Shown: one piece after another, positions 5,920 to 25,325 of the stretch
Layout: every line of letters begins with the position of its first letter
Numbering within the stretch: position 1 is the first letter of the stretch
IMG/VR virus record: IMGVR_UViG_3300042691_036815
Location: 1-30,849 of that record
DNA length: 30,849 nucleotides
Direction: 5' to 3' (one strand)
From: a virus
The notes under the pieces: model-generated
Told to the model about the DNA's origin: nothing
What the model saw: the letters and a program-made list of their open reading frames with translations, nothing else
Database searches by the model: none
Position numbers and translations under genes: made by a program

Positions 5920-6672
5920 ATGAATATGATAAGATTAGTTGTTCAAAATTCAAATAAAGATATATGCGCATTTTTAGCTGAAACTGAAATAGAGAAATCA
6001 CAGGGGTTAAATAATTACGGTGTTTTACCGCAAGGAGCAGGTTTGCTTTTTGTGATGGGATATCCACAGGAAGTTCAATTCTGGATGGATAAGGTTTCCT
6101 ATCCAATTGATATTATCATGATGGATGAGCAAGGAATTGTAAGAAAAGTATTTAAGAATTGTCTTCCCGGATCTATGGAGAGATATATTGCTTATGATAT
6201 TAAGTGGGTATTAGAGATGAAGGCTGGTGAGGCCGATAGAAATCTAATTATGCCGGGCTCTTTCCTAAGAGCAATCGTAAAGCCATATGATTTCAGTACA
6301 TTGGTAAGGCCGGAGCTTCTATGTATTCATGCTTCATATAATTCAACCTTAGAGAATGGTGAATCATATGGCGCAGTAGTTGCTATAAATCAAACACCTA
6401 TTGGTTGGGGATGGAATAGAACAGTACAGCAGAAGAATCCTCTATTACATGCAGAAATGGTCGCAATGAATGATGCGATACTAAGGGGAAGTTCTATATT
6501 GAATGCAGATATATTTACAACTCATATGCCATGCATGATGTGTGGGGCAGCAGCAACTTGGTCAGGCATAAGAAACATTCATTATCTTCTTGATTCTGAT
6601 CATTCTACATTATTGAAGATTGCAGATAAAACAAAAACTCACATTCCGGCCTTTTATAAACTTTCTATGTAA
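5920..6672 (+). CDS. DUF192 domain fused to a cytidine/dCMP deaminase-like domain
   Basis: The 250-residue protein joins two known domains. Residues ~5-115 match DUF192 (COG1430), a small beta fold of unknown function usually found alone: AETEIEKSQGL, GAGLLFVM, FWMDKVSYPIDIIMMDEQG, LPGSMERY. Residues ~130-250 match the zinc-dependent cytidine deaminase fold, with HAE (H177, E179) and PCMMC (C205, C208) giving the zinc ligands and catalytic Glu. Such enzymes convert cytosine nucleosides or nucleotides, or tRNA/DNA bases, to uracil products. The order P-x-M-M-C and length suggest a ComEB/dCMP-deaminase-like type, but substrate is not certain. GGAG lies about 13 bases before the start. It is flanked by promoters and seems a single transcript unit. 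The fusion is unusual; function of the DUF192 part is unknown. Confidence 0.82.
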   Translation: MNMIRLVVQNSNKDICAFLAETEIEKSQGLNNYGVLPQGAGLLFVMGYPQEVQFWMDKVSYPIDIIMMDEQGIVRKVFKNCLPGSMERYIAYDIKWVLEMKAGEADRNLIMPGSFLRAIVKPYDFSTLVRPELLCIHASYNSTLENGESYGAVVAINQTPIGWGWNRTVQQKNPLLHAEMVAMNDAILRGSSILNADIFTTHMPCMMCGAAATWSGIRNIHYLLDSDHSTLLKIADKTKTHIPAFYKLSM

Positions 6673-6743: not shown

Positions 6744-7721
6744 ATGCAAAACGCAATAGTTACTGGAGTAATAGGACAAGACGGAAGTTATTTAGCTGAA
6801 TTGCTTCTTTCTGAGGGATATAATGTCACCGGAGTTTATCGAAGGATAAGTTCTGGCACAAATTATGATAATGTAAGTGAATGTTTATCTAATCCAAATT
6901 TTAATTTGATTGAAGGCGATATTTGCGATTCTGGATTTATGACTGGATTGGTTATTAATCAAAAGCCAGAATTATTTTTTAATTTAGCCGCGCAATCTCA
7001 TGTTGGGTATAGCTTTGAAACGCCAGCAGAAACATTTAGAGTAAATGCGGAAGCTGTTGTTGGTCAGTTGGATATCATAAGAAAGCACAGTCCCGAGACT
7101 CGCTTTTATCAGGCATCCACAAGTGAAATGTTTGGCGGTCTAAATTGTCCTGTAAATGGATATGATGAGTCATCCGCGTTTGGACCTAGAAGTCCTTATG
7201 CAGTTGCTAAAGTGGCCGCACATTACGCTGTGAATAACTACAGGGCAGCATACAACATTTATGCATGTTCAGGAATATTATTTAATCATTCATCCGTAAG
7301 AAGACCAAAAGATTTTGCTACAAGAAAGATTGTCGATGGTGTGGTTAGAGTGAAGAATGGATTACAGGAACATGTTCAAATGGGAAATCTTGCGGCATGT
7401 AGAGATGAAGGGCATTCAAGAGATTATGTAAAAGCGATGTATATGATGCTTCATAATGAAAATGGTCCTACGGATTATGTTGTGTCAACAGGCGTTACCG
7501 TTTCTATAGAAACAATGTTTAAGTATGTCTGTGAAGACCTTGCGGGGTTAAAGTTTGAAGATGTTTATCAGGTTAATCCTAAGTATATGAGGCCATCCGA
7601 AGTTCATTATTTAGTAGGTAATTCAAATAAAATAAAAGAAGAATTAGGCTGGGAACCAAATTATACTTGGAAAGATACATTGCGAGAAATGTACGAAAGT
7701 GACGTAAAGTCGGTTAGGTAA
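6744..7721 (+). CDS. gmd: GDP-mannose 4,6-dehydratase
   Basis: This 325-residue short-chain dehydrogenase/reductase family member matches GDP-mannose 4,6-dehydratase, which turns GDP-mannose into GDP-4-keto-6-deoxymannose in the cytoplasm using bound NADP. Evidence is the N-terminal TGVIGQDGSYLAE (7-19), characteristic of this enzyme, the active-site ASTSEMFG with T126 and E128, and Y152-x-x-x-K156. The later CRDEGHSRDYVKAM and C-terminal RPSEVHYLVGNSNKIKEELG segments are also typical. Length is slightly below the usual ~345-370 residues. It has its own promoter and starts the sugar cluster. No mannose activation genes are present, so host GDP-mannose would be the input. The product feeds fucose, rhamnose or perosamine routes; the downstream aminotransferase favours perosamine. 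Confidence 0.92.
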   Translation: MQNAIVTGVIGQDGSYLAELLLSEGYNVTGVYRRISSGTNYDNVSECLSNPNFNLIEGDICDSGFMTGLVINQKPELFFNLAAQSHVGYSFETPAETFRVNAEAVVGQLDIIRKHSPETRFYQASTSEMFGGLNCPVNGYDESSAFGPRSPYAVAKVAAHYAVNNYRAAYNIYACSGILFNHSSVRRPKDFATRKIVDGVVRVKNGLQEHVQMGNLAACRDEGHSRDYVKAMYMMLHNENGPTDYVVSTGVTVSIETMFKYVCEDLAGLKFEDVYQVNPKYMRPSEVHYLVGNSNKIKEELGWEPNYTWKDTLREMYESDVKSVR

Positions 7722-7726
7722 TAATT

Positions 7727-7807
7727 ATGCTTACTCCACCCATGGTTCTATTGATAGTGGTCGCTATTATCGTGATTTTTGCCATCGCTTGGTTAGAGCT
7801 TGAATAG
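7727..7807 (+). CDS. 26-residue single-span membrane micropeptide
   Basis: This tiny ORF starts five bases after the gmd stop, with AGG at 7716-7718 spaced eight bases before its ATG, a good ribosome binding site inside the end of gmd. It encodes MLTPPMV followed by an unbroken hydrophobic helix of about 17 residues (LLIVVAIIVIFAIAWL) and a short acidic tail ELE. It fits a single-pass inner-membrane peptide. The -35 box of the next promoter overlaps its end. Function is unknown; small phage membrane peptides often affect host lysis timing, exclusion or membrane enzymes, but nothing here picks between these. It could be a chance ORF, though the strong hydrophobicity and ribosome binding site argue against that. 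Confidence 0.55.
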   Translation: MLTPPMVLLIVVAIIVIFAIAWLELE

Positions 7808-7829
7808 TCATAGCCTATGATGCTATAGA
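7800..7829 (+). promoter_or_regulatory. Extended -10 promoter upstream of the ferritin-like gene
   Basis: TTGAAT (7800-7805), an 18-base spacer ending TGC, and TATAGA (7824-7829). The TGC before the -10 makes it an extended -10 type. The gene starts 64 bases further on, leaving a leader with AAGG near 7881 as ribosome binding site. Confidence 0.5.
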
Positions 7830-7893
7830 CTGATCATCGTGAGCTATCTACTCAATAACATTTCGACTAAACACGTAAATAAGGCAAATTAAA

Positions 7894-8373
7894 ATGTCAA
7901 ATATTCAATCATACTATAATACTTCATCCGACCAATATAATAATTTTTATATTCTTCTCACTTCGATAACAAGTGCTGAATATAATTTGTCTCACCAATA
8001 TAGAATGGTAGCCAAATTTCATTTGAGAAATCAAGAAATTATGCTATATGAAAAGTTTATTCTTGATATGGCCGATGAATCCCATGAACATTACTTGGAA
8101 ATGCTAAATTGGTGTTCATTAACATGGAATGGTGAGGGCTCTTATCTTCCGCAAATGTCTGTTGATTCAAATGCTTGGAGATTATCTCCTCGATCTGACG
8201 CTCATGAATATTTAGTGCAAATAATGAAAAGCGAAGAAGAAGTTTTGACAATGTATAAAACTTTAGCTAAACTGTGCCCCGAAGAAATGCAAGACTTTGT
8301 TGATTCCATGATCACAGAGGAATACAAACATATTCTTGAACTAAGAAGAATGACTAGAATTGCTTTTGTGTAA
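7894..8373 (+). CDS. Ferritin-like four-helix protein
   Basis: The 159-residue protein is almost all helix and shows a ferritin/rubrerythrin-like metal pattern: a Glu in SAEYNL near residue 28, DESHEHYLEML near 61-72, EEEV near 112, and EEYKH near 146-150 (an E-x-x-H). This is the spacing of a two-iron site in a four-helix bundle. The first helix pair has an atypical order (D-E-S-H-E-H) so the exact ligands are not certain. Ferritin-like proteins store or oxidise iron, or protect DNA, and some act as oxygenases on organic substrates. It lies between gmd and a glycosyltransferase with its own promoter, so it may either belong with the sugar genes or be an independent iron or stress gene. The downstream gene starts two bases after its stop, suggesting coupling. 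Confidence 0.6.
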   Translation: MSNIQSYYNTSSDQYNNFYILLTSITSAEYNLSHQYRMVAKFHLRNQEIMLYEKFILDMADESHEHYLEMLNWCSLTWNGEGSYLPQMSVDSNAWRLSPRSDAHEYLVQIMKSEEEVLTMYKTLAKLCPEEMQDFVDSMITEEYKHILELRRMTRIAFV

Positions 8374-8375
8374 TT

Positions 8376-9290
8376 ATGAAAAAAATACTTTGGATATCTG
8401 ATTATACTTCTTTAGATCATATAGGCGGCGCTGAACTAACAACGGATGCATATATAGAAACATTGAAGCATGTTGCTGTTGTTGAGCAAGTAAAGACACA
8501 TGCTTTAAATAGAAGTATGATTGATGCAGATTATGATCTTGTGATCATGGATTCAATGACAAATATAAGATCATTGATTATTTATGATATTATTAAGAAA
8601 TTTAAGTTTGTTTCTATTGAGTATGACTATAATAAAGTGTCTATGAACAGGCATGTTATGGATACCAATGAAATTAATCAATATTTGAATGGTGATTCTG
8701 AGTGGGCAATGTTTTACAAGACATTTTGGCAGCATCCAAATAGAGTTGCTACACTCTTTATGTCCGAAGGGCAGATGAATATTCATATTGAAAAATTTAA
8801 TGATGCCGGATTAGAAGTAGATAAAAATTCTTTAATTGTTATAGGAAGTAATTTCACAGATAATGCATATAATCTTATTGATAAATTGAACAAGAAAAGA
8901 GCCGAGTCCGAATCTTGGATAGAGAATGATTATTTGGTTTTTGATTCTTCAAATCCACTGAAGGGCAGAAAAGAAACGGTCGCTTATTGTGAAGAACATA
9001 AAATAAACTATCACTTATTTTCAAATTTATCTCCTAATCAATTGCTTAGGTTAATGAGCAAGTCAAAGGGGATTGTATATATGCCTACAATGCACGATAC
9101 ATGCCCTAGATTGCTTATAGAGGCAAAGATGCTGGGGTTGGATGTCGTAACCAACAACTACGTACAGAACGCAAATGAGGCATGGTTCAGAGATGGAGAT
9201 TCTTATTCAATTAAAAATTATCTTCTCAAGAATAAGCAATTATTTGCATTATTAATAAATCAATATATTGCGTATAACTCACTCACATGA
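8376..9290 (+). CDS. GT-B fold glycosyltransferase (GT4-like)
   Basis: The 304-residue protein has a GT-B layout: an N-terminal MKKILWISDYTSLDHIGGAE with a glycine-rich GGAE loop, a central linker NPLKGRKETVAYCEEH that resembles the start of the GT4 C-terminal domain, and the nucleotide-sugar region MPTMHDTCPRLLIEAKMLGL (E near 245 and 250s) followed by DVVTNN. Such enzymes move a sugar from a nucleotide donor to an acceptor. The protein is shorter than typical GT4 enzymes (~370). It begins two bases after the ferritin-like stop and overlaps the next glycosyltransferase by four bases (ATGA), so the two are likely translated together. The donor could be the GDP-sugar made by neighbouring genes; the acceptor is unknown. 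Confidence 0.78.
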   Translation: MKKILWISDYTSLDHIGGAELTTDAYIETLKHVAVVEQVKTHALNRSMIDADYDLVIMDSMTNIRSLIIYDIIKKFKFVSIEYDYNKVSMNRHVMDTNEINQYLNGDSEWAMFYKTFWQHPNRVATLFMSEGQMNIHIEKFNDAGLEVDKNSLIVIGSNFTDNAYNLIDKLNKKRAESESWIENDYLVFDSSNPLKGRKETVAYCEEHKINYHLFSNLSPNQLLRLMSKSKGIVYMPTMHDTCPRLLIEAKMLGLDVVTNNYVQNANEAWFRDGDSYSIKNYLLKNKQLFALLINQYIAYNSLT

Positions 9291-10102
9291 TAAGTTTTGC
9301 TGTTCACACATATAATGAAGCTGACGCATTAGATCGAATGATCTATAGTATCATGAAGATAAAGAATGAGAAGATAAACGAAATCTTCATTGTAGATCAT
9401 AGGTCTAGTGACCATACACAAGATGTCATAGCGAAGTATAAGGATTCTCATCCAAGAATAGAAATCAATTCATATTATGAAGAGAAAGATTTTGGCGGAG
9501 AATCTAAATTTACATTTGCAGATTTAAGAGATTTTACAATAAGAAATACAAAGAATGATTATGTCGTATTATCTGATTCTGATTTTATATATGGCCCTGG
9601 ATTTGATACGACAATAGAAATGGCGTGTAATGTATTTTTATCAAATCCATCTATGTATGCATTAACTTATGAAATTCCAATAATTAAACAACATGTTCAA
9701 TTTGAAAATTCAAGAATAAAATCTTATGGAGAGGATTCTTATGTTCATCCTCATGCAGCGAGAATCTTAAATAAAAACTTAGGAAAATATATGCAGAAAT
9801 ATATGGATGGCCTGATAGAATGGTTTTATCCAAATGATTACGAGTATCTTTATTTTAAATTAGATATTGGATCAGGTTCTGTGTTATCCATTGATATAAA
9901 AAATAATGATTATTCTAAAATGAGAAATAAAATGAATCATTTTCAAAAATTAATTGTAGACAATAATACATCTTCTAATTTTTTAGAATATCTTGATGAA
10001 AAAGATGACAATATTAATGAATATAATCACGGTCATGATATTAAAAAGATAAAACTTAATAGAGATTTCTATTATGTAGAAAATAAAAATTTAACATTAT
10101 AA
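9287..10102 (+). CDS. GT-A fold glycosyltransferase (family 2-like)
   Basis: This 271-residue protein starts with ISFAVHTYNEADALDRMI, the beta-strand plus loop that opens GT2 enzymes, followed by EIFIVDHRSSDHT and then VVLSDSDF, where D-S-D serves as the metal-binding DxD that holds the nucleotide sugar. The C-terminal ~90 residues are AT-rich, polar and charged, with HGHDIKK near the end. It overlaps the upstream GT-B gene by four bases. It probably acts in the same glycan pathway as the aminotransferase and acyltransferase that follow. Donor and acceptor cannot be read from the sequence. Confidence 0.82.
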   Translation: MISFAVHTYNEADALDRMIYSIMKIKNEKINEIFIVDHRSSDHTQDVIAKYKDSHPRIEINSYYEEKDFGGESKFTFADLRDFTIRNTKNDYVVLSDSDFIYGPGFDTTIEMACNVFLSNPSMYALTYEIPIIKQHVQFENSRIKSYGEDSYVHPHAARILNKNLGKYMQKYMDGLIEWFYPNDYEYLYFKLDIGSGSVLSIDIKNNDYSKMRNKMNHFQKLIVDNNTSSNFLEYLDEKDDNINEYNHGHDIKKIKLNRDFYYVENKNLTL

Positions 10103-10117
10103 AAATGGACAAAATAT

Positions 10118-10765
10118 ATGGCAAATGGTGTTTATAAAATAACTGAAGATTTTGAATCTGCATTGGGCAAATATACTGGCGCTCCATATGTAGTTACCGT
10201 AGATAATGCAAGTAATGGCTTGTTTCTTTGCTTAATGTATGAAAAAACAAAGGGTATGGAAATTACAATTCCATCCAGAACATATATGTCTGTCCCTTGC
10301 TCTATAATACATGCAGGAAGCAAGGTAAATTTTGAACAAGTAGAGGGCACAAAAATAAAAGGTGCATATCAGCTAAAGCCAACGAAAATATGGGATGCTG
10401 CATTATCTTTTACACATAATATGTATAAACCTGGAACGCATATGTGCATTTCATTTACAGGCCCAAGCAAACATTTCAAGTTAAGTAAGGGTGGGGCAAT
10501 ATTGACGGATGATTACCAGGCATATCTTTGGTTTAAGAGAGCTAGATTTTCTGGAAGAAGGGAATGCTCTTATTTTAATGATAACTTCGATATGATTGGG
10601 TGGAATTTCTATATGATGCCTGAGCTAGCCGCCAGGGGATTATTGCTTATAGACCAGTTTTATGATAGAGATACAGGGTTGCCATTAGATATGCCTGATC
10701 TAGAGCTTTCGTATCCAGATTTATCTAAGTATGAAGTTTATACAAAAGCAAATCGCGAAGATTAA
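10118..10765 (+). CDS. Compact DegT/DnrJ/EryC1-type sugar aminotransferase
   Basis: The protein matches the PLP-dependent sugar aminotransferase family (DegT/DnrJ/EryC1/StrS) but is only 215 residues against the usual ~370. Visible landmarks are FESALGKYTGAPYVVTVDNA at the substrate-entry region, IPSRTYMSVP, IWDAALSF with D93 in the place of the PLP ring-nitrogen partner, SFTGPSKHFKLSKGG with K118 as the likely Schiff-base lysine, and NFYMMPELAARGLL matching the YRMT..QAA..GL helix. The central linker and C-terminal small domain are reduced. With gmd upstream and an acyltransferase downstream, it may act as a PerA-like enzyme making GDP-perosamine from GDP-4-keto-6-deoxymannose with glutamate as amino donor. 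Another keto-sugar is possible. Activity of such a short form is not assured. Confidence 0.78.
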   Translation: MANGVYKITEDFESALGKYTGAPYVVTVDNASNGLFLCLMYEKTKGMEITIPSRTYMSVPCSIIHAGSKVNFEQVEGTKIKGAYQLKPTKIWDAALSFTHNMYKPGTHMCISFTGPSKHFKLSKGGAILTDDYQAYLWFKRARFSGRRECSYFNDNFDMIGWNFYMMPELAARGLLLIDQFYDRDTGLPLDMPDLELSYPDLSKYEVYTKANRED

Positions 10766-10767
10766 AT

Positions 10768-11367
10768 ATGAAAAAAAGATGTATAATAGGCCATGGGGCT
10801 TTTGCAAAAGAAGTGTATGCTTTATGCGAAGATGAATCTATAGAGTTTTTTGTAGATGACCATTTTATCGACAAAGATACTCCATGTTTCGTTGGGCCTA
10901 TATCTAATTTAGATTTAGACACTTATGAAATAGTCATAGCGATAGCCGATCCCTCATCAAGAAAAAAAATATCTGAAAAATTAGGTAATAATGCTAAGTA
11001 TTTCAATGTAATACATAAAAGTGTTATATTTTATGACAATAATCATATAATTGGTAACGGAAGTGTAATATGCCCAAATGTAGTTATATCCACAAATGTA
11101 GTGTTAGGAAAACATTCACACATATATATAGGTACAAACATAGGTCATGACTTTCTATCTGGTGATTATTTTACAACGGCAATGGGAGTTAATGTTGCAG
11201 GAAATGTAACTGTTGGTGATTGTGTTTACATGGGAAATAACTCTACCGTAAAGCAAAAAATAAATATATGTAGTAATGTTACGATAGGTCTTAATGCTGG
11301 CATCGTAAAAAACATAGAAAAAGAAGGAACTTACATAGGAACACCCGCAAAATGTCTCATCCCGTAA
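10768..11367 (+). CDS. NeuD/PglD/PerB-type sugar O/N-acyltransferase
   Basis: This 199-residue protein has the two-part layout of bacterial nucleotide-sugar acyltransferases. Residues ~1-75 form a small Rossmann-like domain (RCIIGHGAFAKEVYAL, then FFVDD) and ~85-199 are left-handed beta-helix hexapeptide repeats (IIGNGSVICPNVVISTNVVL, VAGNVTVGDCVYMGNNSTV). The GHDF segment supplies the likely catalytic His, as in PglD. The end, GTYIGTPAK, is typical. These enzymes use acetyl-CoA to acetylate an amino group on a nucleotide sugar. It starts two bases after the aminotransferase stop, the expected order for amination then N-acetylation, like perA-perB. It overlaps the next glycosyltransferase by 16 bases. 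Confidence 0.85.
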   Translation: MKKRCIIGHGAFAKEVYALCEDESIEFFVDDHFIDKDTPCFVGPISNLDLDTYEIVIAIADPSSRKKISEKLGNNAKYFNVIHKSVIFYDNNHIIGNGSVICPNVVISTNVVLGKHSHIYIGTNIGHDFLSGDYFTTAMGVNVAGNVTVGDCVYMGNNSTVKQKINICSNVTIGLNAGIVKNIEKEGTYIGTPAKCLIP

Positions 11368-12155
11368 TAAACATTTTTATTTCATTTCGATGTAATTACA
11401 AATACGTAAATGAGTGTTTATCTTCTTTATATGTTCAAAAAAATATAAATAGAGAATTAATTAAGTTATTTATATATGATGATTTAACTCCAAGGGAAGA
11501 TGATAGTTTTGAGTATAAGAAATATTCAAAATCTATTAATAGATTTTTGTCTTATTTTAATTATGAGTATCATTATAATGTTGATAATATTGCTAAATAC
11601 AATTTACATGGTATTTACGATATGTTTTCAAAAATAAATAAAAATGAAATAATTGCTTTTTTAGATGGTGATGACAAGTTAGTCGGAGAATATGTATTAG
11701 AAAAATACATTAAAGAATATGAAAAAGAAAATATAAAAATTGTCTTTGGTAATCCTTTTCCTGATATTTCATTCAATAATGTTCCGACGTATTCAAAGTT
11801 TGAATACAAAGATTTTTTATATCAGATAGTTAGAAATGTAAAATGGTTTTCATATCATATGAAAACAATAAAATCAGATCTTATATTAGATCATGATTAT
11901 GATATAGATTTATTCAAAATAAATGGAGAGCCGCTTATACCCATAGATCAGGCACTTTTTTACGAAATAATAGAGAAAAATAAAATAGATAAACACAATA
12001 TTTCTTATATAGAAGATTATAATTACTATTATAGAATATATGAAGGCAATAAATCCGAATCTTATATTAGAAAAATGCAAGAGCAAGAAATTATTATACG
12101 AAATAAACAAACAGACTATTATAAAAAATTAAATACAAATGAACACAACAAATGA
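11352..12155 (+). CDS. GT-A fold glycosyltransferase (family 2-like), AT-rich
   Basis: The 267-residue protein opens with VINIFISFRCNYKYVNECLS and LFIYDDLTPRED, then IIAFLDGDDKL, which supplies a D-x-D-D metal site. These are marks of GT2 glycosyltransferases. It overlaps the acyltransferase end by 16 bases and the following nuclease start by 17, so it belongs to a tightly packed unit. The base composition is visibly more AT-rich than the nuclease and GT-B genes after it, with many ATA, AAA and TTA codons. That may mean a separate origin. Substrates are unknown. Confidence 0.8.
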   Translation: MSHPVINIFISFRCNYKYVNECLSSLYVQKNINRELIKLFIYDDLTPREDDSFEYKKYSKSINRFLSYFNYEYHYNVDNIAKYNLHGIYDMFSKINKNEIIAFLDGDDKLVGEYVLEKYIKEYEKENIKIVFGNPFPDISFNNVPTYSKFEYKDFLYQIVRNVKWFSYHMKTIKSDLILDHDYDIDLFKINGEPLIPIDQALFYEIIEKNKIDKHNISYIEDYNYYYRIYEGNKSESYIRKMQEQEIIIRNKQTDYYKKLNTNEHNK

Positions 12156-13059
12156 AAATGAAGAGACACCATTAGAAGAAAATAATAATTCTCTAGAAAT
12201 ACAAAAAAAACATAAAATATCTTGGAGCCAATATCGCTTGTGGAAGAATTGCCCACATAAGCATTGGTTGATATACAGAGAAGACGAACCAAGAGATCCG
12301 CCAAGTAAATTTACTGATTATGGAACATGCATTCATAATACAGCGGAGGATTGGTTTAGAGAGATACAGTCTGGTTTAGTCCCTGACTTTGATATACCTC
12401 ATAGGTTCTTGATGCATTTCATGAACATTGCGATGCCTAACCAACTTAACAAGGTATATTCACCTTTACAGGCATTCAAGAAAGATGAGTTGGCTGAATG
12501 GGTAAGGGCAGGCAAAGAAAGCTGCATTGAACTAATTCAGTTTATAGAAAACAAATATCTTAAAAATGGATGGGAAGTTTTCTCTCCAGAACATGATCTA
12601 TTAACTCCTTTAGATGAAGAACATCATAAGGATTATTATTTCAATGGATTTGTTGACTTAATCTTAAGAAAGGGTGATAAATTTAAAATATTGGACTATA
12701 AGTCTTGCTCATGGGGATGGGGGAAAGACAAAACATCTGATCCTAATGTGATAGGGCAGGTACAAGCATATGCTCACTTTTTCTTTAAGCAACATCCTGA
12801 ATTAGTTAAAGATATTGAGAATATAGAAACTTCTTATATCTTAGTGAAAAGAACGGTGTCCACAGGATTTAGGATAGAAGAGCTAGGGGTTCAGGTCACG
12901 GATAGCGTAATAGAAGAAATTCTAAATAATTTTAGAAATATGATAGACCACTTAGAGAAAGGTACTCATCCTTATTGGGGTACAATTAATGGTGAGTGTT
13001 CATCTTATGGTGGATGTAAGTTTGCCGGAACTCCTAAATGTAAATTTGGTAGAAAATAA
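12139..13059 (+). CDS. Cas4/RecB-type PD-(D/E)XK nuclease with probable Fe-S cluster
   Basis: The 306-residue protein has the sequence order of the Cas4/AddB-like PD-(D/E)XK exonucleases: ISWSQYRLWKNCPHKHWL with C38, a GTCIHNTAEDWF helix with H66, NGFVDLIL with D173, KILDYKSCSWG with D186 and K188, and VIGQVQAYAHFF. Three C-terminal cysteines (C287, C293, C301) together with C38 match the four ligands of the 4Fe-4S cluster in this family. Such proteins are DNA exonucleases or end-processing nucleases in recombination; phage members may work with replication or host DNA breakdown. No CRISPR genes are nearby, so a Cas4 adaptation role is not implied. The 17-base overlap with the glycosyltransferase upstream suggests coupling. 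Confidence 0.85.
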   Translation: MNTTNENEETPLEENNNSLEIQKKHKISWSQYRLWKNCPHKHWLIYREDEPRDPPSKFTDYGTCIHNTAEDWFREIQSGLVPDFDIPHRFLMHFMNIAMPNQLNKVYSPLQAFKKDELAEWVRAGKESCIELIQFIENKYLKNGWEVFSPEHDLLTPLDEEHHKDYYFNGFVDLILRKGDKFKILDYKSCSWGWGKDKTSDPNVIGQVQAYAHFFFKQHPELVKDIENIETSYILVKRTVSTGFRIEELGVQVTDSVIEEILNNFRNMIDHLEKGTHPYWGTINGECSSYGGCKFAGTPKCKFGRK

Positions 13060-13140: not shown

Positions 13141-14451
13141 ATGTCTCAAGAAAAAATAGAAGTTTCAATACAAAGACCTGTCGGGGCAGAAAAGAAAATA
13201 AGAATTCTTACTCTATCCGATACTCCACTTGCTACTTCCGGAATCGGAATACAGGCAAAGCAGCTTATTATGGGATTACTTGATACAGGTAGATATCAGG
13301 TTTTTTCTATTGGCGGTGCGGTTGCTCACCATGACTACAATCCCCAGGTAGTTACAGAATACAATGGCGATTGGGTTATTTTTCCAACAAAAGGGTTTGG
13401 TGATGATTCCAATGTTCATCAATGGCTAAGGCAGTTTAATCCTGATATTGTGCTTGCGTTTACCGATCCTAGATTCTTCATTCACTTATTTAAGACAGAA
13501 GATGAAATTAGGGATATGGCACCATTGATTCTATGGACTGTTTGGGATAATGAGCCTATGCCTCTCTATAATAAAGAGATGTATAGCTCTAGTGATGACA
13601 TTGTGTTTTTCTCTCGATATTCTTATGAATTCCATAAACCTATGCAAGATATTGTTGAGTGTAATTTTCATTGCTGTGCTCTTGCAAGAGAGAATGGCCT
13701 ATTCTTTCCTATGGAAGAATCAATGAGAAAACAAGCCAGAGCTAAAATATTTGGTGATAAAAATAAAACAAATACAAACTTTTTGTATGTATCAAGAAAT
13801 GCGCGAAGAAAAAGGCCGTCGGATATCTTAGTAGGCTTTCAGAAGTTCATCAATAGACTAACGCCTGAAGATAAAGCAAATAGCAAGCCAGTAATGATTA
13901 TGCATACAAATCCATTAGATCATGAAGGGCCGAATCTATTTGAAGTTGTAAATCTCTTAGGTCTTCAAGATTATGTCTTGTTTTCTAGCGCAAAGTCTAC
14001 AGATCAAGATATGAATATTCTCTATAATTCAGTAGACTGCACAATCAATGCTTCTATGAATGAGGGGTTTGGTATGTCTGTTCATGAGTCATTACTAGCG
14101 GGAACTCCCGTTATAGCAACGAGAACGGGCGGAATGACAGAACAAATGACAGATGGTGAAAATGTCTTTGGGATTATCATGGATCCTGACCAGAAAAATT
14201 TAGTAGGATCCCAGCTTGTTCCTTATATCTTTGAAGATCTTGCCTCGCCAGATACCATTGCGGATAGCCTAATGACAATGTATAGGATGCCAGCAGAAGA
14301 ACGAAGAAAGTTAGGTCTTATGGGTCAAGAGCATTTAGCAAAGAATAATAAAATGGAAGATATTATTACTTTCTGGGACTCTTTGCTCACAGAAAGAGTT
14401 AATGATTATAAGAATCCGGAAAGAGTTAGATACAATTTTAGAAAAATGTAA
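13141..14451 (+). CDS. GT-B fold glycosyltransferase (GT4-like), first of a pair
   Basis: The 436-residue protein is a clear GT4-type enzyme. The N-terminal domain has ILTLSDTPLATSGIGIQAKQ, with the glycine-rich donor/acceptor loop. The C-terminal Rossmann domain has YVSRNARRKRPSDILVGFQK, then NASMNEGFGMSVHESLLAGT with the E-x7-E motif and PVIATRTGG. A nearby promoter and a good ribosome binding site indicate a fresh transcript start. Codon choice is closer to the helicase and baseplate genes than to the AT-rich glycosyltransferase at 11352. The gene at 16466 is a second enzyme of the same broad type. Donor and acceptor are unknown; phage DNA, virion or host surface glycans are all possible. 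Confidence 0.88.
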   Translation: MSQEKIEVSIQRPVGAEKKIRILTLSDTPLATSGIGIQAKQLIMGLLDTGRYQVFSIGGAVAHHDYNPQVVTEYNGDWVIFPTKGFGDDSNVHQWLRQFNPDIVLAFTDPRFFIHLFKTEDEIRDMAPLILWTVWDNEPMPLYNKEMYSSSDDIVFFSRYSYEFHKPMQDIVECNFHCCALARENGLFFPMEESMRKQARAKIFGDKNKTNTNFLYVSRNARRKRPSDILVGFQKFINRLTPEDKANSKPVMIMHTNPLDHEGPNLFEVVNLLGLQDYVLFSSAKSTDQDMNILYNSVDCTINASMNEGFGMSVHESLLAGTPVIATRTGGMTEQMTDGENVFGIIMDPDQKNLVGSQLVPYIFEDLASPDTIADSLMTMYRMPAEERRKLGLMGQEHLAKNNKMEDIITFWDSLLTERVNDYKNPERVRYNFRKM

Positions 14452-14453
14452 TT

Positions 14454-15725
14454 ATGAATAAAAATTTACTTGAAGACATTAAAAAAAGAGGATTAATTTC
14501 CAATATTATATTAGAAGAACAACTTGTATTTTCTATAAATAGTGGTAATAAATATGCTTATCTGGGCGTAGATCCTACAGCACCAAGTCTTCATTTGGGA
14601 AATTTATTGCCAATAATATTGCTTATTCATTTATCTAAGATCGGAATATCTCCCATAATATTATTAGGTGGGGCAACTGGCATTATAGGAGATCCATCAG
14701 GGAAAGACTCTGAAAGAAATCTTTCGGATATTGATAATATTAATAAAAATTTAGATTCTATTAAAATTCAAATTGAAAAAATATTTTCTAGTGATAATTT
14801 TAAAATAGTCAACAACCATGATTGGATAAAAAACATATCATATATACATCTTCTTCGTGATATAGGAAAACACTTTTCCGTTAATAAGATGATATCAAGA
14901 GAATCGGTAAAGAAGAGAATAAATGAAAATGAAAATGGAATAAGCTATACTGAATTTTCTTATATGATATTACAATCATATGATTTCTATCATTTATTTG
15001 AAAATTATGGATGCTCATTACAAATAGGAGGCAATGATCAATTAGGTAACATTTTATCTGGAATAGATTTGATCAGAAGAAAACTTGATAAACAGGCTTA
15101 TGGTATAACATGTCCATTACTGCTAAATTCTTCCGGAGAGAAATTTGGAAAAAGTGCCGGTAATGCTATATGGTTAGACCCGAATAAAACAAGCCCATAT
15201 GAATTTTATCAATACTGGATGAATACTGACGATAATGAAGTATATAAATACTTAAAACTTTTTACATTTATAGATTTAGACGAAATAGAAAAAATTTATG
15301 AAATGCACATGCGCAACCCGCACGAAAGATATGCTCAATCTATACTTGCCAAAGAACTAACCAAAATGATTCATGGAGAAGACGAGCTTGCAAAAGTTAT
15401 TAAAACCACAGACATTTTATTTAACAAGATTTATAAAAATATTCTTAATATAGAAGACATATTATTAATTATTGATAATATTGATACATTAACCATAGAA
15501 AAGTCAAATATTGAAATTGTAAAAATTACTGATATTATATTAAAACTAGGAATAGTAAATTCAAATACCAAGGCAAGAGAAATAATAAGACAGGGTTCTT
15601 TGTATATTAATAATCATCAAATTAAAGATGAAAAATTTGCAATAATTGAATCATTTTTAATAGATGATAGATTTATTATCGTAAGACACGGTAAGAAAAA
15701 TAACTATATTGTTCAATTTGTATAG
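14454..15725 (+). CDS. tyrS: Tyrosyl-tRNA synthetase
   Basis: This complete 423-residue class I aminoacyl-tRNA synthetase charges tRNA-Tyr. The signatures are AYLGVDPTAPSLHLGN, where HLGN (47-50) is the HIGH motif; GATGIIGDPSGKDSERNL; the tyrosine pocket Y170-x3-Q174-x2-D177; QIGGNDQLGNILSG (190-203); and KFGKS (230-234) as the KMSKS loop. Residues ~355-423 are an S4-type RNA-binding domain (KAREIIRQGSLYINNHQI). Length and order match the standard bacterial and mitochondrial form, so it looks functional. It starts two bases after the glycosyltransferase stop and is visibly AT-richer than its neighbours, suggesting separate acquisition. Phages rarely carry such enzymes. No tRNA gene is in the window, so its tRNA partner is the host's or lies elsewhere in the phage genome. 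Confidence 0.95.
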   Translation: MNKNLLEDIKKRGLISNIILEEQLVFSINSGNKYAYLGVDPTAPSLHLGNLLPIILLIHLSKIGISPIILLGGATGIIGDPSGKDSERNLSDIDNINKNLDSIKIQIEKIFSSDNFKIVNNHDWIKNISYIHLLRDIGKHFSVNKMISRESVKKRINENENGISYTEFSYMILQSYDFYHLFENYGCSLQIGGNDQLGNILSGIDLIRRKLDKQAYGITCPLLLNSSGEKFGKSAGNAIWLDPNKTSPYEFYQYWMNTDDNEVYKYLKLFTFIDLDEIEKIYEMHMRNPHERYAQSILAKELTKMIHGEDELAKVIKTTDILFNKIYKNILNIEDILLIIDNIDTLTIEKSNIEIVKITDIILKLGIVNSNTKAREIIRQGSLYINNHQIKDEKFAIIESFLIDDRFIIVRHGKKNNYIVQFV

Positions 15726-16465: not shown

Positions 16466-17713
16466 ATGAGTCAGTCAGAAATACAAGAATTCGTAGAGCC
16501 ATTTTACAAAGTTTGCGTAAGGGGTCCGGCCCACACACGTTCTGGATATGGAGAGTATGTAAGATCTCTCCTCAGAATACTTAGTCAATATGTTGAGTAT
16601 GAAATTACACTTCAATCAACAAGGTGGGGACAAACTCCTTATATCTTCGATAAGGCGCATCCTGATATGGAATTACTCAACGAGTTATCCATAAGAACAA
16701 AGGCTGAATATGATGCGAAGATAAAATACGATGTATCTTATCAGGTTCAGTTACCTAATGAATGGGATCCTCAGTTAGCCAAATTCAATATAGGTGTCAC
16801 TGCGGCTACAGAAGTGGATAGGGTAACTCAACAATGGCAAGAATGCTGTAACCAAATGGACTTGGTAATTGCGATGAGTGAGCACACAAAAAGATCACTT
16901 TTGAATGGCCCTATAGAAATCACAACGCCAATCATTGTTTTGGGATCCTGCTTCAAGGAATGTTTCACAGATGATATCTATCATCCAACCGACTTAGGTT
17001 TGGATATTGATCCTAAGGTGAAAGATCTTTTCCTTCATGTAGGGCAGATATCTGATATGGACCCAATGCGTGATCGCAAGAATACATATGGTTTGATATA
17101 TGCTTTCAAGAAAGCATTTGCCGTTGATCCAACGAAGGGTCTTATACTCAAAGTTAACATGGGAAGAAATCATTATCTAGACTTCTCACAGACATCGGCA
17201 TCTATCAATAAATTCATTGAGGTCAACGGACTTCAGCATTCTAGGGCAAATATTTATCTTCTTCATGGAACAATGACGGATAAGCAAATGGCGTCTTTGT
17301 ATAGACATCCCAAAGTAAAGGCATTTGTCTCTTTCACAAGAGGCGAAGGATTTGGGATTCCTTTCTTAGAGGCCGCCGTATCTGGATTGCCTATCATTGC
17401 TGCAAATCATTCATCATATCCAGAGTTTCTAACTGTAGGTAGTGAAACATGCTTTTGTAAGGTAGATCATGAAATGGCACCTGTTCATGAAAGATTTGTT
17501 GATAATAATATTATCCCTCAAGGGGCAATGTGGGCTGAAATCCATCCAGATAGCATGGTGAAATCTCTAACTAGGTTTGCTGAAAAAGGCACTGACGTTC
17601 CTCGTCAAAAGGCAGGGAAAGCAAAGTCATATGTCGTGAGTAAATACGACAAGGTAAATATGGCAATAGAGCATCAGAGATCTCTAAGAACACTTTTTCC
17701 GGATAAATTCTAA
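16466..17713 (+). CDS. GT-B fold glycosyltransferase (GT4-like), second of a pair
   Basis: The 415-residue protein has the GT4 hallmarks: VRGPAHTRSGYGEYVRSLLR near the N terminus, LFLHVGQISDMDPMRDRKNT at the start of the C-terminal domain, and FVSFTRGEGFGIPFLEAAVS with E-x7-E, then GLPIIAANHSSYPEFL. A good ribosome binding site (AGAGGT) lies seven bases before the ATG. It is separated from the GT-B gene at 13141 by the tyrosyl-tRNA synthetase and the LLxEVP protein, which may have been inserted between them. It probably acts in the same glycosylation programme. Sugar and target are unknown. Confidence 0.87.
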   Translation: MSQSEIQEFVEPFYKVCVRGPAHTRSGYGEYVRSLLRILSQYVEYEITLQSTRWGQTPYIFDKAHPDMELLNELSIRTKAEYDAKIKYDVSYQVQLPNEWDPQLAKFNIGVTAATEVDRVTQQWQECCNQMDLVIAMSEHTKRSLLNGPIEITTPIIVLGSCFKECFTDDIYHPTDLGLDIDPKVKDLFLHVGQISDMDPMRDRKNTYGLIYAFKKAFAVDPTKGLILKVNMGRNHYLDFSQTSASINKFIEVNGLQHSRANIYLLHGTMTDKQMASLYRHPKVKAFVSFTRGEGFGIPFLEAAVSGLPIIAANHSSYPEFLTVGSETCFCKVDHEMAPVHERFVDNNIIPQGAMWAEIHPDSMVKSLTRFAEKGTDVPRQKAGKAKSYVVSKYDKVNMAIEHQRSLRTLFPDKF

Positions 17714-19929: not shown

Positions 19930-21564
19930 ATGGCAGGAGTTTTAGGACCACTTACCCCCAATACATTATCTGATCCATTAGTATTGGATCGCAAATTAGC
20001 TAGGGAACAATTACTAACTCAAAGTAAAGGGTCGGATTTCTTTCAGGCTGCCATTGTATTAGAGATAGATCCGATAGGTGGTCTTTTTGGTAATAATGGG
20101 GAGACAGAGGTTGGGTGCCCACGGTTTAGTATTCGAGCAAGAATATTGAATCAGACAGCAGAAGGCGGCAATGCTGACTTCATGAATGACACAGATCAGT
20201 TGCCTGTTTATTTTCCATTTGAACCAAATTATCATGAATATAATCCAATCAAAGTTGGTGAGAAAGTTTGGGTATTTGAACTTAATGGATTGCAGGGAAC
20301 AGTGCAGAGATTTTGGAAAAGCAGAATCAATTCTCCCGCTGCTCTAGATTTAGCAGATTTTGTAAGGCCAACAAATAACTATTCAGATGCTTCTTATGAG
20401 GCGAATATAGGAAGAGAGCCTGATTCCCCAATACAGGATGTCAATTTAGATAGAAGAATTTCTGATACCGTGGATAAAGTTGCCTCAAGGGATCCTAGTG
20501 TCTTTGGGGACGTAGACATTCCAGATAATGCCCGGTCGTCCTTTTCCAGAGTGACGCAAGATTCCGCATTGAAGTACGGATTTGTAAATGAAGCATTTCC
20601 TGAATGGTTTTATAGGCCATCAGATAAAGTAGGTCAGGGATCAAATAACTCAGGATATCTATTCGGAACAAATATGTTTACAATAGAATCCGAAGAAGAT
20701 GTCATAGAAGACATAGCTGATCTAATGTCTATATTTGGTGCTTCTAATGATGCTTCTGATTTTTCAAATGCAAATGACCGTGAAGTAATGGTTGCGGATA
20801 GATCATTGATATCTGTAAATGCAAAAGAGAAAACAGCATTGGGTATTTTAGTTGCTGGTAGAGAATATTATGTAAATTCTTTTACATTCGATTCATCTAC
20901 GCTCGCTGTGTTCGAGAACTTTACCATAGATAGTATTCCTGCTTTCTCAAGTGCCCTAGAATCAATCGGAGGAACGAATCAGGAAGAATCCCCGTCCTTG
21001 CTAGCTAGAAGCTCTAATATACGTTTGTGGGCTCGCGATACAGTTGTTGTAGGCATTGATAACGGCAATGGTATGTTTATGTCTAATGAAGACAATGGTA
21101 CATTTATATCAAAGTTTGACGGATCTTATCTGTTTAAATCTAGTGAAACTGAATTACAAATAGATCCGGAAATCATATCGCTTTCTATAGGTGGCTCCAC
21201 AATGGATATGTCATCTGATAGTATAGAGATAAATGCATTGGCTAGTTCTATGTCTATGAACTCTTCGGGAATATCTATGACTACATCTAATTTAAATTTA
21301 TCTAGTGTAACTCAATTTTCTTTCCCGGCGACAATAACGACGGGTGGCCCTATTTCATTTGCATCTCCAGCCTCATTTGGGACTGCACCAATTCCAGTTG
21401 TGAATAAAACGACAATGGATGCTTTATCTGCTGCCATAGTCACGGCGTCTGGTAATCCCGCATTGGCTGCTGCTGGCCCTGCTGCCCCGGCAATAGTGGC
21501 GGTACTAACTCAGATAGCAGCTTCTATAAACGGACTTCCTTATTCCCCAAATCTAAGTGGATAA
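19930..21564 (+). CDS. Baseplate central spike/hub protein, gp5-like without visible lysozyme
   Basis: The 544-residue protein starts the baseplate run. Residues ~40-150 look like the gp5/gpV OB-fold: CPRFSIRARIL, QLPVYFPFEPNYHEYNPIKV, GEKVWVFELNGLQGTVQRFW. The C-terminal ~200 residues alternate small, polar and hydrophobic residues (ISLSIGGSTMDMSSDSIEIN, ISMTTSNLNL), the mark of a trimeric beta-helix needle, followed by an Ala-rich end. T4 gp5 has a lysozyme domain between these parts; here residues ~150-330 show no lysozyme motif I recognise. It would puncture the outer membrane at the tail tip, perhaps with cell-wall hydrolysis done by another protein. The match to gp5 is by layout and position, not close sequence. 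Confidence 0.75.
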   Translation: MAGVLGPLTPNTLSDPLVLDRKLAREQLLTQSKGSDFFQAAIVLEIDPIGGLFGNNGETEVGCPRFSIRARILNQTAEGGNADFMNDTDQLPVYFPFEPNYHEYNPIKVGEKVWVFELNGLQGTVQRFWKSRINSPAALDLADFVRPTNNYSDASYEANIGREPDSPIQDVNLDRRISDTVDKVASRDPSVFGDVDIPDNARSSFSRVTQDSALKYGFVNEAFPEWFYRPSDKVGQGSNNSGYLFGTNMFTIESEEDVIEDIADLMSIFGASNDASDFSNANDREVMVADRSLISVNAKEKTALGILVAGREYYVNSFTFDSSTLAVFENFTIDSIPAFSSALESIGGTNQEESPSLLARSSNIRLWARDTVVVGIDNGNGMFMSNEDNGTFISKFDGSYLFKSSETELQIDPEIISLSIGGSTMDMSSDSIEINALASSMSMNSSGISMTTSNLNLSSVTQFSFPATITTGGPISFASPASFGTAPIPVVNKTTMDALSAAIVTASGNPALAAAGPAAPAIVAVLTQIAASINGLPYSPNLSG

Positions 21565-21578
21565 TACTATATATTAGT

Positions 21579-22076
21579 ATGAGTAATAATCCTTTACAAA
21601 GCGCATCTACGCCTAAAATATCTAGGAAATTCGTTTATAATGCGGATGGTACGGATGTAGGTCAGTCAAGAAATACAAGCTCATCAAATGTGAAGAATCC
21701 AATAGCTATCTCTACTCCAATGGCTATATCCGAAAGATTTGGTATGTTTGATATGAGAGAAGATATTTTAAGTGTAGTCAAAGATCAGTTAAAAATGATA
21801 TTGCTTACAAATAAAGGTGAAAGGGTTGGTAATTATGATTTTGGAGCAAATGTAAGAGCAATCTTGTTTTCTCAGATTGAAAATGATATAGAAGACATAT
21901 TAATAGAAAACATACAGAAAAATGTTGAAAAATATATGCCTTTTACAAGACTTATTTCTTTTAATTTATACACAGGAAATGAAATAGAAGATTTACAAGA
22001 AAATGAAATGTTAATAGAAATTACTTTTTCTGTAGAATCTTTAAATTTGCAAAGTAGTGTTGAGGTAATTTTCTAA
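21579..22076 (+). CDS. Baseplate wedge protein, gp25-like
   Basis: The 165-residue protein contains the gp25-like core: MREDILSVVKDQLKMILLTN, KGERVGNYDFGANVRAILFS, then a helix DIEDILIENIQKNVEKYMPF and LIEITFSVESL. In T4, gp25 joins wedges to the sheath and is shared across contractile injection systems. The N-terminal ~55 residues are Ser/Asn/Thr-rich and likely flexible, making it a little longer than T4 gp25 (132). It sits between the spike and the gp6-like wedge gene, the usual order. Confidence 0.9.
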   Translation: MSNNPLQSASTPKISRKFVYNADGTDVGQSRNTSSSNVKNPIAISTPMAISERFGMFDMREDILSVVKDQLKMILLTNKGERVGNYDFGANVRAILFSQIENDIEDILIENIQKNVEKYMPFTRLISFNLYTGNEIEDLQENEMLIEITFSVESLNLQSSVEVIF

Positions 22077-22088
22077 GGTAAAAATAAT

Positions 22089-23912
22089 ATGGCTAATAAT
22101 AGAATAAATTATCTTAATAAAGATTTTGATCAGTTAAAATCCTCTTTGATTAGATACGCTAGAGAGAACTTCCCTTTGGCGAATCAAGATTTTAGTGAGG
22201 CTTCATCTGCCGGTATGCTTATTGAATTAGTGGCATACGCAGGCGATGTAATGTCTTTTTACATTGATCATGCTTACAATGAGCAATTTATTGATACAGC
22301 CAATGAGACGACAAATATTCAAAGAATAGCGGCAAGGTATGGATATAAAATTCCTGGCCCTAGCCCTGCAATTGCGTTGTGTAAATTTGTCATACAAGTT
22401 CCCGTTCTTCAAAGCGGAAACGCAGCAGCGCCAGCGCCAGATCTTAGAGCAGCGCCAATTCTTTTACCAGGTACAATTGTCCAATCAAATTCTGGCATTG
22501 ATTTCACTTTAACAAATAGAATTGATTTTACTGACTCAACAAATGCCACTTTTGTTGCGGGAGACAGAGATAATCTTGGTAATCCTTTGAATTTTCAAAT
22601 TATTAAAAATGGATTTGTTATTTCGGGTCAGACTAAATCAATCAATATAAATGTTGGAAATTTTGTTCAATTTAGAGAAGTATTAGTTCCAGCTAAAGAC
22701 ATAACGCAAATATTGGAAATATCTGATTCTCAAGGTAATTTATATTATGAGGTTGATAATCTATACCAAAATGTAATTTATCAAGCAGTAAATAATACAT
22801 CAAGAAACACTGAATATGAACCGGAACAACTTCTTAAACAGATTTATGTTCAAAGAAGATTTACTCAAGAATTTCAGTTGGGATCTAGATTTACGAAATT
22901 GACGTTTGGTTCTGGTGATCCTAGCAGCACAGATATTGATTCTATTCCAAACCCAGGTAATTTCTCTACGCCACTTTTCGGCAAGACAACATTCTCTAAT
23001 TTCACGATAGATCCATATAGATTTACTCAAACATCTACATTAGGGATAGGTCCGGCAAATACGAATATTACTATTCGATTTAGATTTGGTGGCGGTAGCG
23101 GTCATAATGTGGCTGAAAATAATATACGAAAGATTAAAATTCCATTACTACAGGAACCTCATCCTAATGCTGCGATTACTTCTGCCGGATTAAGAAAGTC
23201 GATTGTTCAAACATTGTCGGTGATAAATCCTGATCCCGCAAATGGCGGAACGGATCCTCCAACATTGGATGATGTTAGAATAGCTGCTCCGGCAAATTAT
23301 GCTGCACAATCGAGAACCGTGACCGCACCTGACTTTATTGCCAGAATACTCAGTCTTCCACAATCCTTTGGGTCTGTATTTAGGGTGTCTGCTCAGAGAT
23401 CTAAATTCGCTCGCGGAACCATGGATATCAGAGTTGTTTCTAAGGATAAAGACGGAAGGCTAATTACAACGCCAGAGTCAGTGAAGAAGAATATAGCACA
23501 ACTTCTTTCTCCGAACAGAATGCTTACGGATAACATTCAGATATTGGACACTCAGATTATTAACTTAGGATTGGAAGTTTCTTTGGTCAAGGCGGCCGGT
23601 GTAAATATAGATTCTCTAAGAGTAAATGTTCTTAGAGCACTTAAAAATTTCTTAGATATAAATAACTTATTCATTGGTCAGCATTTGATAGAGGATGAGA
23701 TAAGGTCTGTAGTATTTAATATAGCGGGAGTTGCTGCCGTAAACGAAATTAAGTTTACGAACATAAGAGGAACAATTGACGGTTATGTATACAGCAACAC
23801 TCGATTTGATATTCCGCCTCCTGCTGAAAGAAGAGGAATATTAGAGTGTCCGAAGAGCGGCATATTTGAATTCAGATTCTCAGAAAGAGATATAAAAGCG
23901 AGCATAAGATAA
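22089..23912 (+). CDS. Baseplate wedge protein, gp6/J-like
   Basis: This 607-residue protein matches the T4 gp6 / baseplate J family, which builds the inner wedge ring. The N-terminus has INYLNKDFDQLKSSLIRYAR, SAGMLIELVAYAGDVMSFYI and FIDTANETTNIQRIAARYGY, typical of gp6. The middle is beta-rich, and residues ~370-560 have SIVQTLSVINPDPANGGTDP, VTAPDFIARILSLPQSFGSV and NRMLTDNIQILDTQIINLGL, common in J-type proteins. It follows gp25 by 12 bases. Length is close to T4 gp6 (660). Confidence 0.92.
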   Translation: MANNRINYLNKDFDQLKSSLIRYARENFPLANQDFSEASSAGMLIELVAYAGDVMSFYIDHAYNEQFIDTANETTNIQRIAARYGYKIPGPSPAIALCKFVIQVPVLQSGNAAAPAPDLRAAPILLPGTIVQSNSGIDFTLTNRIDFTDSTNATFVAGDRDNLGNPLNFQIIKNGFVISGQTKSININVGNFVQFREVLVPAKDITQILEISDSQGNLYYEVDNLYQNVIYQAVNNTSRNTEYEPEQLLKQIYVQRRFTQEFQLGSRFTKLTFGSGDPSSTDIDSIPNPGNFSTPLFGKTTFSNFTIDPYRFTQTSTLGIGPANTNITIRFRFGGGSGHNVAENNIRKIKIPLLQEPHPNAAITSAGLRKSIVQTLSVINPDPANGGTDPPTLDDVRIAAPANYAAQSRTVTAPDFIARILSLPQSFGSVFRVSAQRSKFARGTMDIRVVSKDKDGRLITTPESVKKNIAQLLSPNRMLTDNIQILDTQIINLGLEVSLVKAAGVNIDSLRVNVLRALKNFLDINNLFIGQHLIEDEIRSVVFNIAGVAAVNEIKFTNIRGTIDGYVYSNTRFDIPPPAERRGILECPKSGIFEFRFSERDIKASIR

Positions 23913-23921
23913 AATAAATAT

Positions 23922-25322: not shown

Positions 25323-25325
25323 AAA

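Follow-up and report, generated by a model that had tools for sequence, protein, structure and literature searches.

A family of half-size predicted sugar aminotransferases in phages and a probable viral route to an N-acylated amino sugar

Results

Sugar-enzyme genes in a myovirus fragment

The stretch of DNA analysed here (the window) is a virus fragment of 30,849 bases from IMG/VR, matching the record IMGVR_UViG_3300042691_036815 end to end, and carries a cluster of sugar genes that includes gmd, a gene for a compact DegT-fold aminotransferase and, adjacent to the latter, a gene for a NeuD/PglD-type acyltransferase. The cluster was captured whole and lies on the plus strand only, with tightly packed genes from the start of gmd at 6744 to the end of the second glycosyltransferase family 4 (GT4) gene at 17713. 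Promoter and terminator scans gave signal at chance level. The phage is a myovirus, a virus of bacteria, whose baseplate module occupies approximately 19930-29018; the wedge protein in it (22089-23912) shows 28-30% identity to homologues of Flavobacterium phage immuto, Microcystis phage Mel-JY01 and a huge uncultured phage.

In bacterial O-antigen synthesis Gmd, PerA and PerB convert GDP-mannose to GDP-4-keto-6-deoxymannose, GDP-perosamine and GDP-N-acetylperosamine. A sequence-only reading of the window had proposed that the phage makes an amino sugar by this route and transfers it to DNA, virion or host surface. The three enzyme classes named there are borne out by family-library matches and motifs, and the acyltransferase gene starts 2 bp past the aminotransferase stop codon. 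As judged from the sequences, the similarities behind the three assignments are not due to chance.

The predicted Gmd can be placed in its family with strong confidence. It matches GDP_Man_Dehyd (PF16363) over its full length at 7e-96 in the family library scan and reaches 308 bits against TIGR01472, short of the equivalog cut-off of 415 as is the case for most phage Gmds. The protein is a full-length extended short-chain dehydrogenase/reductase with the S/T-x-E and YxxxK signatures, its active-site motifs are intact (STSEMFG from 125, SPYAVAK from 150) and its nearest relative among the dehydratases is GMD. The top PDB match is the GDP-mannose 4,6-dehydratase 1rpn (1e-78, residues 2-324), with the GDP-6-deoxy reductases far behind; a GDP-heptose dehydratase is ruled out by score (7us5, 1e-27). 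At the same time the window Gmd is divergent, with at most about 46% identity to any phage Gmd gathered in the analysis.

The acyltransferase (ACYLTRANSFERASE) matches TIGR03570 (NeuD/PglB/VioB) at 1e-41 with 143 of 160.8 bits and combines a PglD_N Rossmann domain (PF17836) with a hexapeptide beta-helix (PF00132). Its His127 aligns with the catalytic His of PglD and is invariant in 37 relatives. PerB belongs to the same NeuD-type family.

A compact DegT-fold aminotransferase

The sequence-only reading missed that the aminotransferase is strongly reduced and differs from an ordinary PerA. The enzyme has 215 amino acids, about 55% of the usual DegT length of approximately 340-440, and thus lacks the complete two-domain size; full-length phage DegTs from the same search have 342-445. 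The 67 non-redundant relatives of the window enzyme measure 195-253 amino acids, mostly 209-215. Because they are similarly short the length is genuine, and a frameshift or truncation artefact is ruled out by the 60-odd relatives of equal size. Profile-profile alignment places residues 7-190 on columns 36-271 of the 378 columns of full-length DegT relatives; about 37 internal columns and the last approximately 107, the C-terminal domain, are missing. Separate encoding of that domain by a neighbouring gene was considered and rejected, as its profile matched full-length DegTs only.

The DegT fold and its catalytic residues are nevertheless retained. Among 43 diverse relatives from both branches of the family (see below) there is no variation at Asp93, Lys118-His119, Gly125-Gly126 or Gly161, Asp93 being the position that binds pyridoxal phosphate (PLP) and Lys118 that of the Schiff base. 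A ColD-type dehydratase is ruled out, since the Schiff-base position holds Lys followed by His and not His itself. In the family profile Lys118 aligns opposite the lysine of the SFFGNK motif of perosamine synthetase; judging from its place, this lysine should correspond to K186 in the PDB titles, with an inferred numbering offset.

Searched against the PDB, the family profile finds Caulobacter perosamine synthetase first (3bn1/3dr7, 4e-11), followed by 7b0m (4e-9). The AlphaFold model of the window enzyme (predicted local distance difference test, pLDDT, 88.7; predicted template-modelling score, pTM, 0.87) gives a consistent picture: GDP-perosamine synthase from Caulobacter accounts for all of the first seven Foldseek matches in the PDB (4.6e-9 for the best chain, TM 0.65 by query), with ArnB, WbpE and other sugar aminotransferases close behind. 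An NCBIfam scan returned weak LegC/PseC matches and none other. Taken together, sequence profile and model support a nucleotide-sugar aminotransferase, leaning to PerA short of proof.

The reduced size raises the alternative that the protein is no longer a sugar aminotransferase and has become a different kind of PLP enzyme, or a protein with a role in binding or regulation. In a single-sequence search PF01041 rises above noise over residues 7-78 only (5e-13), and loss of the C-terminal domain, of which no separate copy was found among the neighbours, could change or abolish activity. However, the PLP-binding Asp, the Schiff-base Lys and the Gly-Gly pair are invariant in both branches, the family is highly conserved (median pairwise identity of 82% within the sample), and the gene stands beside sugar genes and is translationally coupled to the acyltransferase. 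We regard loss of function as improbable.

In some genomes a full-length DegT occurs along with the compact one, and this coexistence suggests separate roles.

A large family, nearly restricted to viruses

Pattern scans, which detect close relatives only and give lower bounds for the family, found 508 relatives in IMG/VR with the window aminotransferase, at least 599 with the distant paralogue P0001 (approximately 30% identical) and at least 584 viral matches with a joint alignment. Nearly the same patterns hit 21 loci in 84,980 cellular species genomes. Most of these 21 are contigs of metagenome-assembled genomes or single cells, and several bear further virus-like genes; some, for example those on Prochlorococcus single-cell contigs and an alphaproteobacterial contig, may be genuine host islands. 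The compact DegT family is thus large and nearly virus-restricted. It splits into two branches, A and B, which seldom occur on one contig, and the window enzyme belongs to branch A.

In branch A, counted over 64 non-redundant loci with the window left out, a NeuD-type acyltransferase is present at 44 and lies immediately downstream of the aminotransferase at 29, with the stop and start codons of the two genes overlapping in 27 of those 29. At five branch-A loci (L031:8647-9354 and four similar ones) a WbqC-like gene (PF08889, 1e-72) follows the compact DegT in place of the acyltransferase, a substitution suggesting that WbqC may also modify the amino group. Another branch-A phage (L090:3180-5687) has a Gmd-like gene together with genes for an epimerase and a SIS-domain (GmhA-like) protein, an arrangement that resembles a route to a GDP-6-deoxy-heptose.

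Branch B is tightly linked to gmd, which is present at 69 of 71 non-redundant loci and directly adjacent at 62 (Fisher P ~1e-26 for the difference in linkage between the branches). A small WbuC-like cupin occurs at 59 of the 71 loci, a left-handed beta-helix acyltransferase at 29 and an S-adenosylmethionine (SAM) methyltransferase at 25. Acyltransferase and methyltransferase are never found together (hypergeometric P ~3e-8, for loci that are not fully independent). The nearest PDB entries of the acyltransferase, 3vbi-3vbp, are those of AntD, a 4-amino-4,6-dideoxyglucose N-acyltransferase. The result is a four-gene cassette of WbuC-like cupin, acyltransferase or methyltransferase, compact DegT and Gmd (loci L094-L173; for example L156:5102-7562), which is also present on Prochlorococcus and alphaproteobacterial single-cell contigs. 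On one reading it is a route to GDP-4-amino-4,6-dideoxymannose in which the group capping the amino nitrogen can be exchanged. The cupin, at position -1 or -2, has no Pfam match and falls just short of the WbuC threshold (41.2 of 42 bits); that it is an FdtA-type 3,4-ketoisomerase, pointing to a 3-amino sugar, is possible but not supported.

Other genes of the window

The sequence-only reading counted three glycosyltransferases in the cluster. The gene starting at 9287 is a clear GT2, the one at 11352 a weak match, and the product of 8376-9290 is GT4-like by motif, with no match in the family libraries nor to any PDB chain. The latter protein opens with GGAELT, which is invariant, and contains a DTCPRL..EA motif recalling GT4 enzymes; its homologues are found in the sugar cassettes that phages of branch B carry. 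The earlier count is extended by two more genes that are clearly GT4 (Table 1).

Table 1. Genes of the sugar cluster, with positions in the window
Gene or product	Length (amino acids)	Position	Strand	Basis or remark
gmd, GDP-mannose 4,6-dehydratase	325	6744-7721	+	family, PDB and motif matches
Ferritin-like protein	159	7894-8373	+	PF00210 3e-4, under gathering score
Putative glycosyltransferase, GT4-like by motif alone	304	8376-9290	+	no library match
GT2 glycosyltransferase	271	9287-10102	+	PF00535 3.6e-10
Compact DegT-fold PLP sugar aminotransferase, branch A (predicted)	215	10118-10765	+	PF01041, residues, fold
NeuD/PglD/VioB/PerB-type sugar N-acyltransferase (predicted)	199	10768-11367	+	TIGR03570, PglD_N, hexapeptide
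Weak GT2, overlapping the acyltransferase gene	267	11352-12155	+	PF00535 0.0013, under gathering score
PD-(D/E)XK gene		12139-13059	+	
GT4 glycosyltransferase, phrog_2170		13141-14451	+	homologue flanks the same cluster in many branch-A phages
Tyrosyl-tRNA synthetase	423	14454-15725	+	PF00579 7e-85 plus C-terminal domain
GT4 glycosyltransferase, phrog_2170		16466-17713	+	homologue flanks the same cluster in many branch-A phages

The ferritin-like gene has no homologue in any related locus. The tyrosyl-tRNA synthetase is full-length and lies inside the glycosyltransferase region; the window holds no tRNA gene, and the related phage loci fetched have no homologue of the synthetase. Upstream of gmd, the gene at 5920-6672 encodes a DUF192 domain fused to a cytidine/deoxycytidylate-type deaminase domain. 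Three tandem paralogues are located at 1-711, 711-1460 and 1464-2228. The second and third begin with the identical peptide MNNLLLKEYIKSIILNENYSF, and in the first, which is truncated at the edge of the window, the tail of this peptide is seen. Beyond the shared start these proteins appear kinase-like by eye (GSFR.VY ... DFVIKIA), and the two that were tested have no Pfam match. Like the capsid-targeting sequence of T4, this common start might act as a signal for packaging into the capsid.

Discussion

The genes described above can be combined into a short pathway. Gmd, with its strong family assignment, would convert what is presumably host GDP-mannose to GDP-4-keto-6-deoxymannose; the mini-DegT, judging from residues and modelled fold, would use PLP to place an amino group on C4 of this predicted substrate; and the NeuD-type left-handed beta-helix acyltransferase, clear in its family, would cap the amino group of the presumed product with a putative acyl donor. 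One might then imagine that at least one phage glycosyltransferase attaches the sugar to a glycan of the virion or the host surface. For transfer to DNA, the other target named by the sequence-only reading, the clustered glycosyltransferases are the sole support in the window.

The interpretation given by the sequence-only reading is thus supported in part. How specific this proposal can be made depends on the substrate. That the genes make an amino sugar is very probable, and that the product is an N-acylated 4-amino-4,6-dideoxyhexose of some kind we consider probable. Several points favour the GDP-perosamine series: the Gmd is sound, PerA ranks first by profile and by fold, the acyltransferase is of the PerB family, and sister branch B nearly always stands beside gmd. 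Among the window genes there is no fcl, rmd, rmlB or other 4,6-dehydratase or reductase for the Gmd product. Since the window has a gmd, as an exception within branch A, and its cluster has no gene for GDP-fucose or GDP-rhamnose, GDP-N-acyl-perosamine is the best single guess, although a tentative one. We see an even balance for the statement that the cluster is a short viral route to the nucleotide of an N-acylated 4-amino-4,6-dideoxyhexose, here most likely GDP-N-acyl-perosamine.

A number of findings weigh against this assignment. The lead of GDP-perosamine synthase over other sugar aminotransferases is small, approximately 1-2 orders of magnitude by profile and by fold, and a single-sequence search of the aminotransferase does not single out PerA (0.0022). 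The acyltransferase is nearer to VioB (8e-21) and PglD (6e-18) than to Caulobacter PerB (2e-7), which argues weakly against a GDP-specific enzyme. Within the window, the ferritin-like gene and two putative transferase genes separate gmd from the aminotransferase/acyltransferase pair, and the window Gmd forms a long branch outside the clade of branch-B-linked Gmds, its exact place in the tree being uncertain because of this length. Phage G037, which has both branches, carries its gmd next to the B gene and not the A gene. The gene gmd is found in the fetched neighbourhood of just 8 of the 64 branch-A loci and anywhere in 10 of 48 branch-A records taken as whole contigs, sometimes 30-40 kb away, and on branch-A contigs, which are incomplete, RmlB exceeds the cut-off in 2 of 45 and a UDP-GlcNAc dehydratase in 1 of 45. 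As the branch-A relatives are seldom accompanied by gmd, the substrate that they share may come from the host and could be something other than a GDP sugar. Given the small margins, the closeness to VioB and PglD, the gmd-poor relatives and the distance of gmd from the pair, the substrate assignment is provisional.

The scarcity of gmd and other 4,6-dehydratases around branch A, and the closeness of the acyltransferase to VioB and PglD, also speak for a rival in which two unrelated routes share one sugar island. Gmd would then feed GDP-L-fucose or GDP-D-rhamnose, with the reductase coming from the host, from an unseen phage gene or from Gmd itself, and the pair would act on a host dTDP- or UDP-4-keto-6-deoxy sugar to give a product of the viosamine, Fuc4NAc or bacillosamine type. 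An RmlD-like reductase family in 26 of 67 neighbourhoods is in line with this, as are the cultured cyanophages that combine gmd with fcl (PMC9602691) and the GMD of chlorovirus PBCV-1, which also performs the reduction to GDP-D-rhamnose (PMC4691112). On the other hand, the complete cluster lacks fcl, rmd, rmlB and any other 4,6-dehydratase gene, both PDB comparisons favour GDP-perosamine synthase, and sister branch B is tied to gmd. We consider two separate routes a possible but somewhat doubtful explanation. For branch A as a whole, the keto-sugar is probably often supplied by the host, and the window phage probably belongs to a minority that brings its own dehydratase.

The GDP-perosamine pathway of Caulobacter, E. 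coli O157 and Brucella O-antigens has the same three enzyme classes clustered as in the window. The window departs from it in having an aminotransferase of about half-length that has no C-terminal domain, an acyltransferase more like VioB/PglD, and genes encoded by a virus, with a predicted substrate. A viral analogue is the partly characterized UDP-viosamine route of Mimivirus, in which the 4,6-dehydratase R141, the PLP aminotransferase L136 and the 4-N-acetyltransferase L142 provide an N-acetylated 4-amino-4,6-dideoxy sugar for the virus's own glycans (PMC4691112); that route is UDP-glucose based, however, and belongs to a giant virus of amoebae. On the basis of KEGG annotation, perosamine synthetase rfbE has one listing as a viral gene (PMC8226683), and a search of the open-access literature for a phage perosamine pathway gave mentions at the KEGG level only. 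Together with the Mimivirus route this listing shows that virus-made amino sugars are known in kind. The gmd gene itself is common in phages and, in Baltic water, ranks with the viral metabolic genes found most often, at 60% of stations (PMC9301287). The T4-like cyanophages P-SSM2, S-SKS1, DSL-LC02 and S-SCSM1 have gmd with glycosyltransferases, as the window does, yet pair it with fcl or other epimerase/reductase genes and not with an aminotransferase (PMC9602691).

The cultured Flavobacterium phage immuto (Immutovirus) shares with the window the compact aminotransferase, at 70% identity, and the NeuD-type acyltransferase, at 43%, as well as the flanking PD-(D/E)XK gene and two GT4 genes, and has the baseplate wedge homologue. 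Its complete 160-kb genome has no Gmd match at E 1e-10 and also bears a full-length DegT; the pair is annotated by analogy only, as transaminase and pilin glycosylation protein. Full-length phage DegTs of the same superfamily are of ordinary size, unlike the window enzyme, and sometimes lie beside gmd, as do the 342-amino-acid protein of LR756511 and a DdhC-like 3-dehydratase in branch-A phage G032. The LR756511 protein was considered as a PerA and rejected, since in the PDB it matches a generic sugar aminotransferase and ArnB best and PerA less well.

Of greater interest than the perosamine route itself is the family of miniature aminotransferases, nearly confined to viruses; we found no description of it or of the branch-B cassette in the open-access literature. 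We incline slightly to the view that two large, nearly virus-restricted mini-DegT families of approximately 195-225 amino acids make phage amino sugars, B as a mobile and modular GDP cassette with an exchangeable cap and A with a NeuD-type acyltransferase and a borrowed or encoded keto-sugar. If this is true, the mini-DegTs would be the smallest members of their superfamily with sugar aminotransferase activity. The linkage of branch B to gmd, with alternative acyl or methyl caps, makes a concrete prediction about products. A half-size sugar aminotransferase that is common in environmental phages and near-absent in cells would show that phages evolve sugar enzymes of their own and do not merely borrow them. 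If confirmed, the cultured phage immuto would offer a test system for private phage sugars, whether these serve in the virion coat, on the host surface against rival phages or in the protection of DNA.

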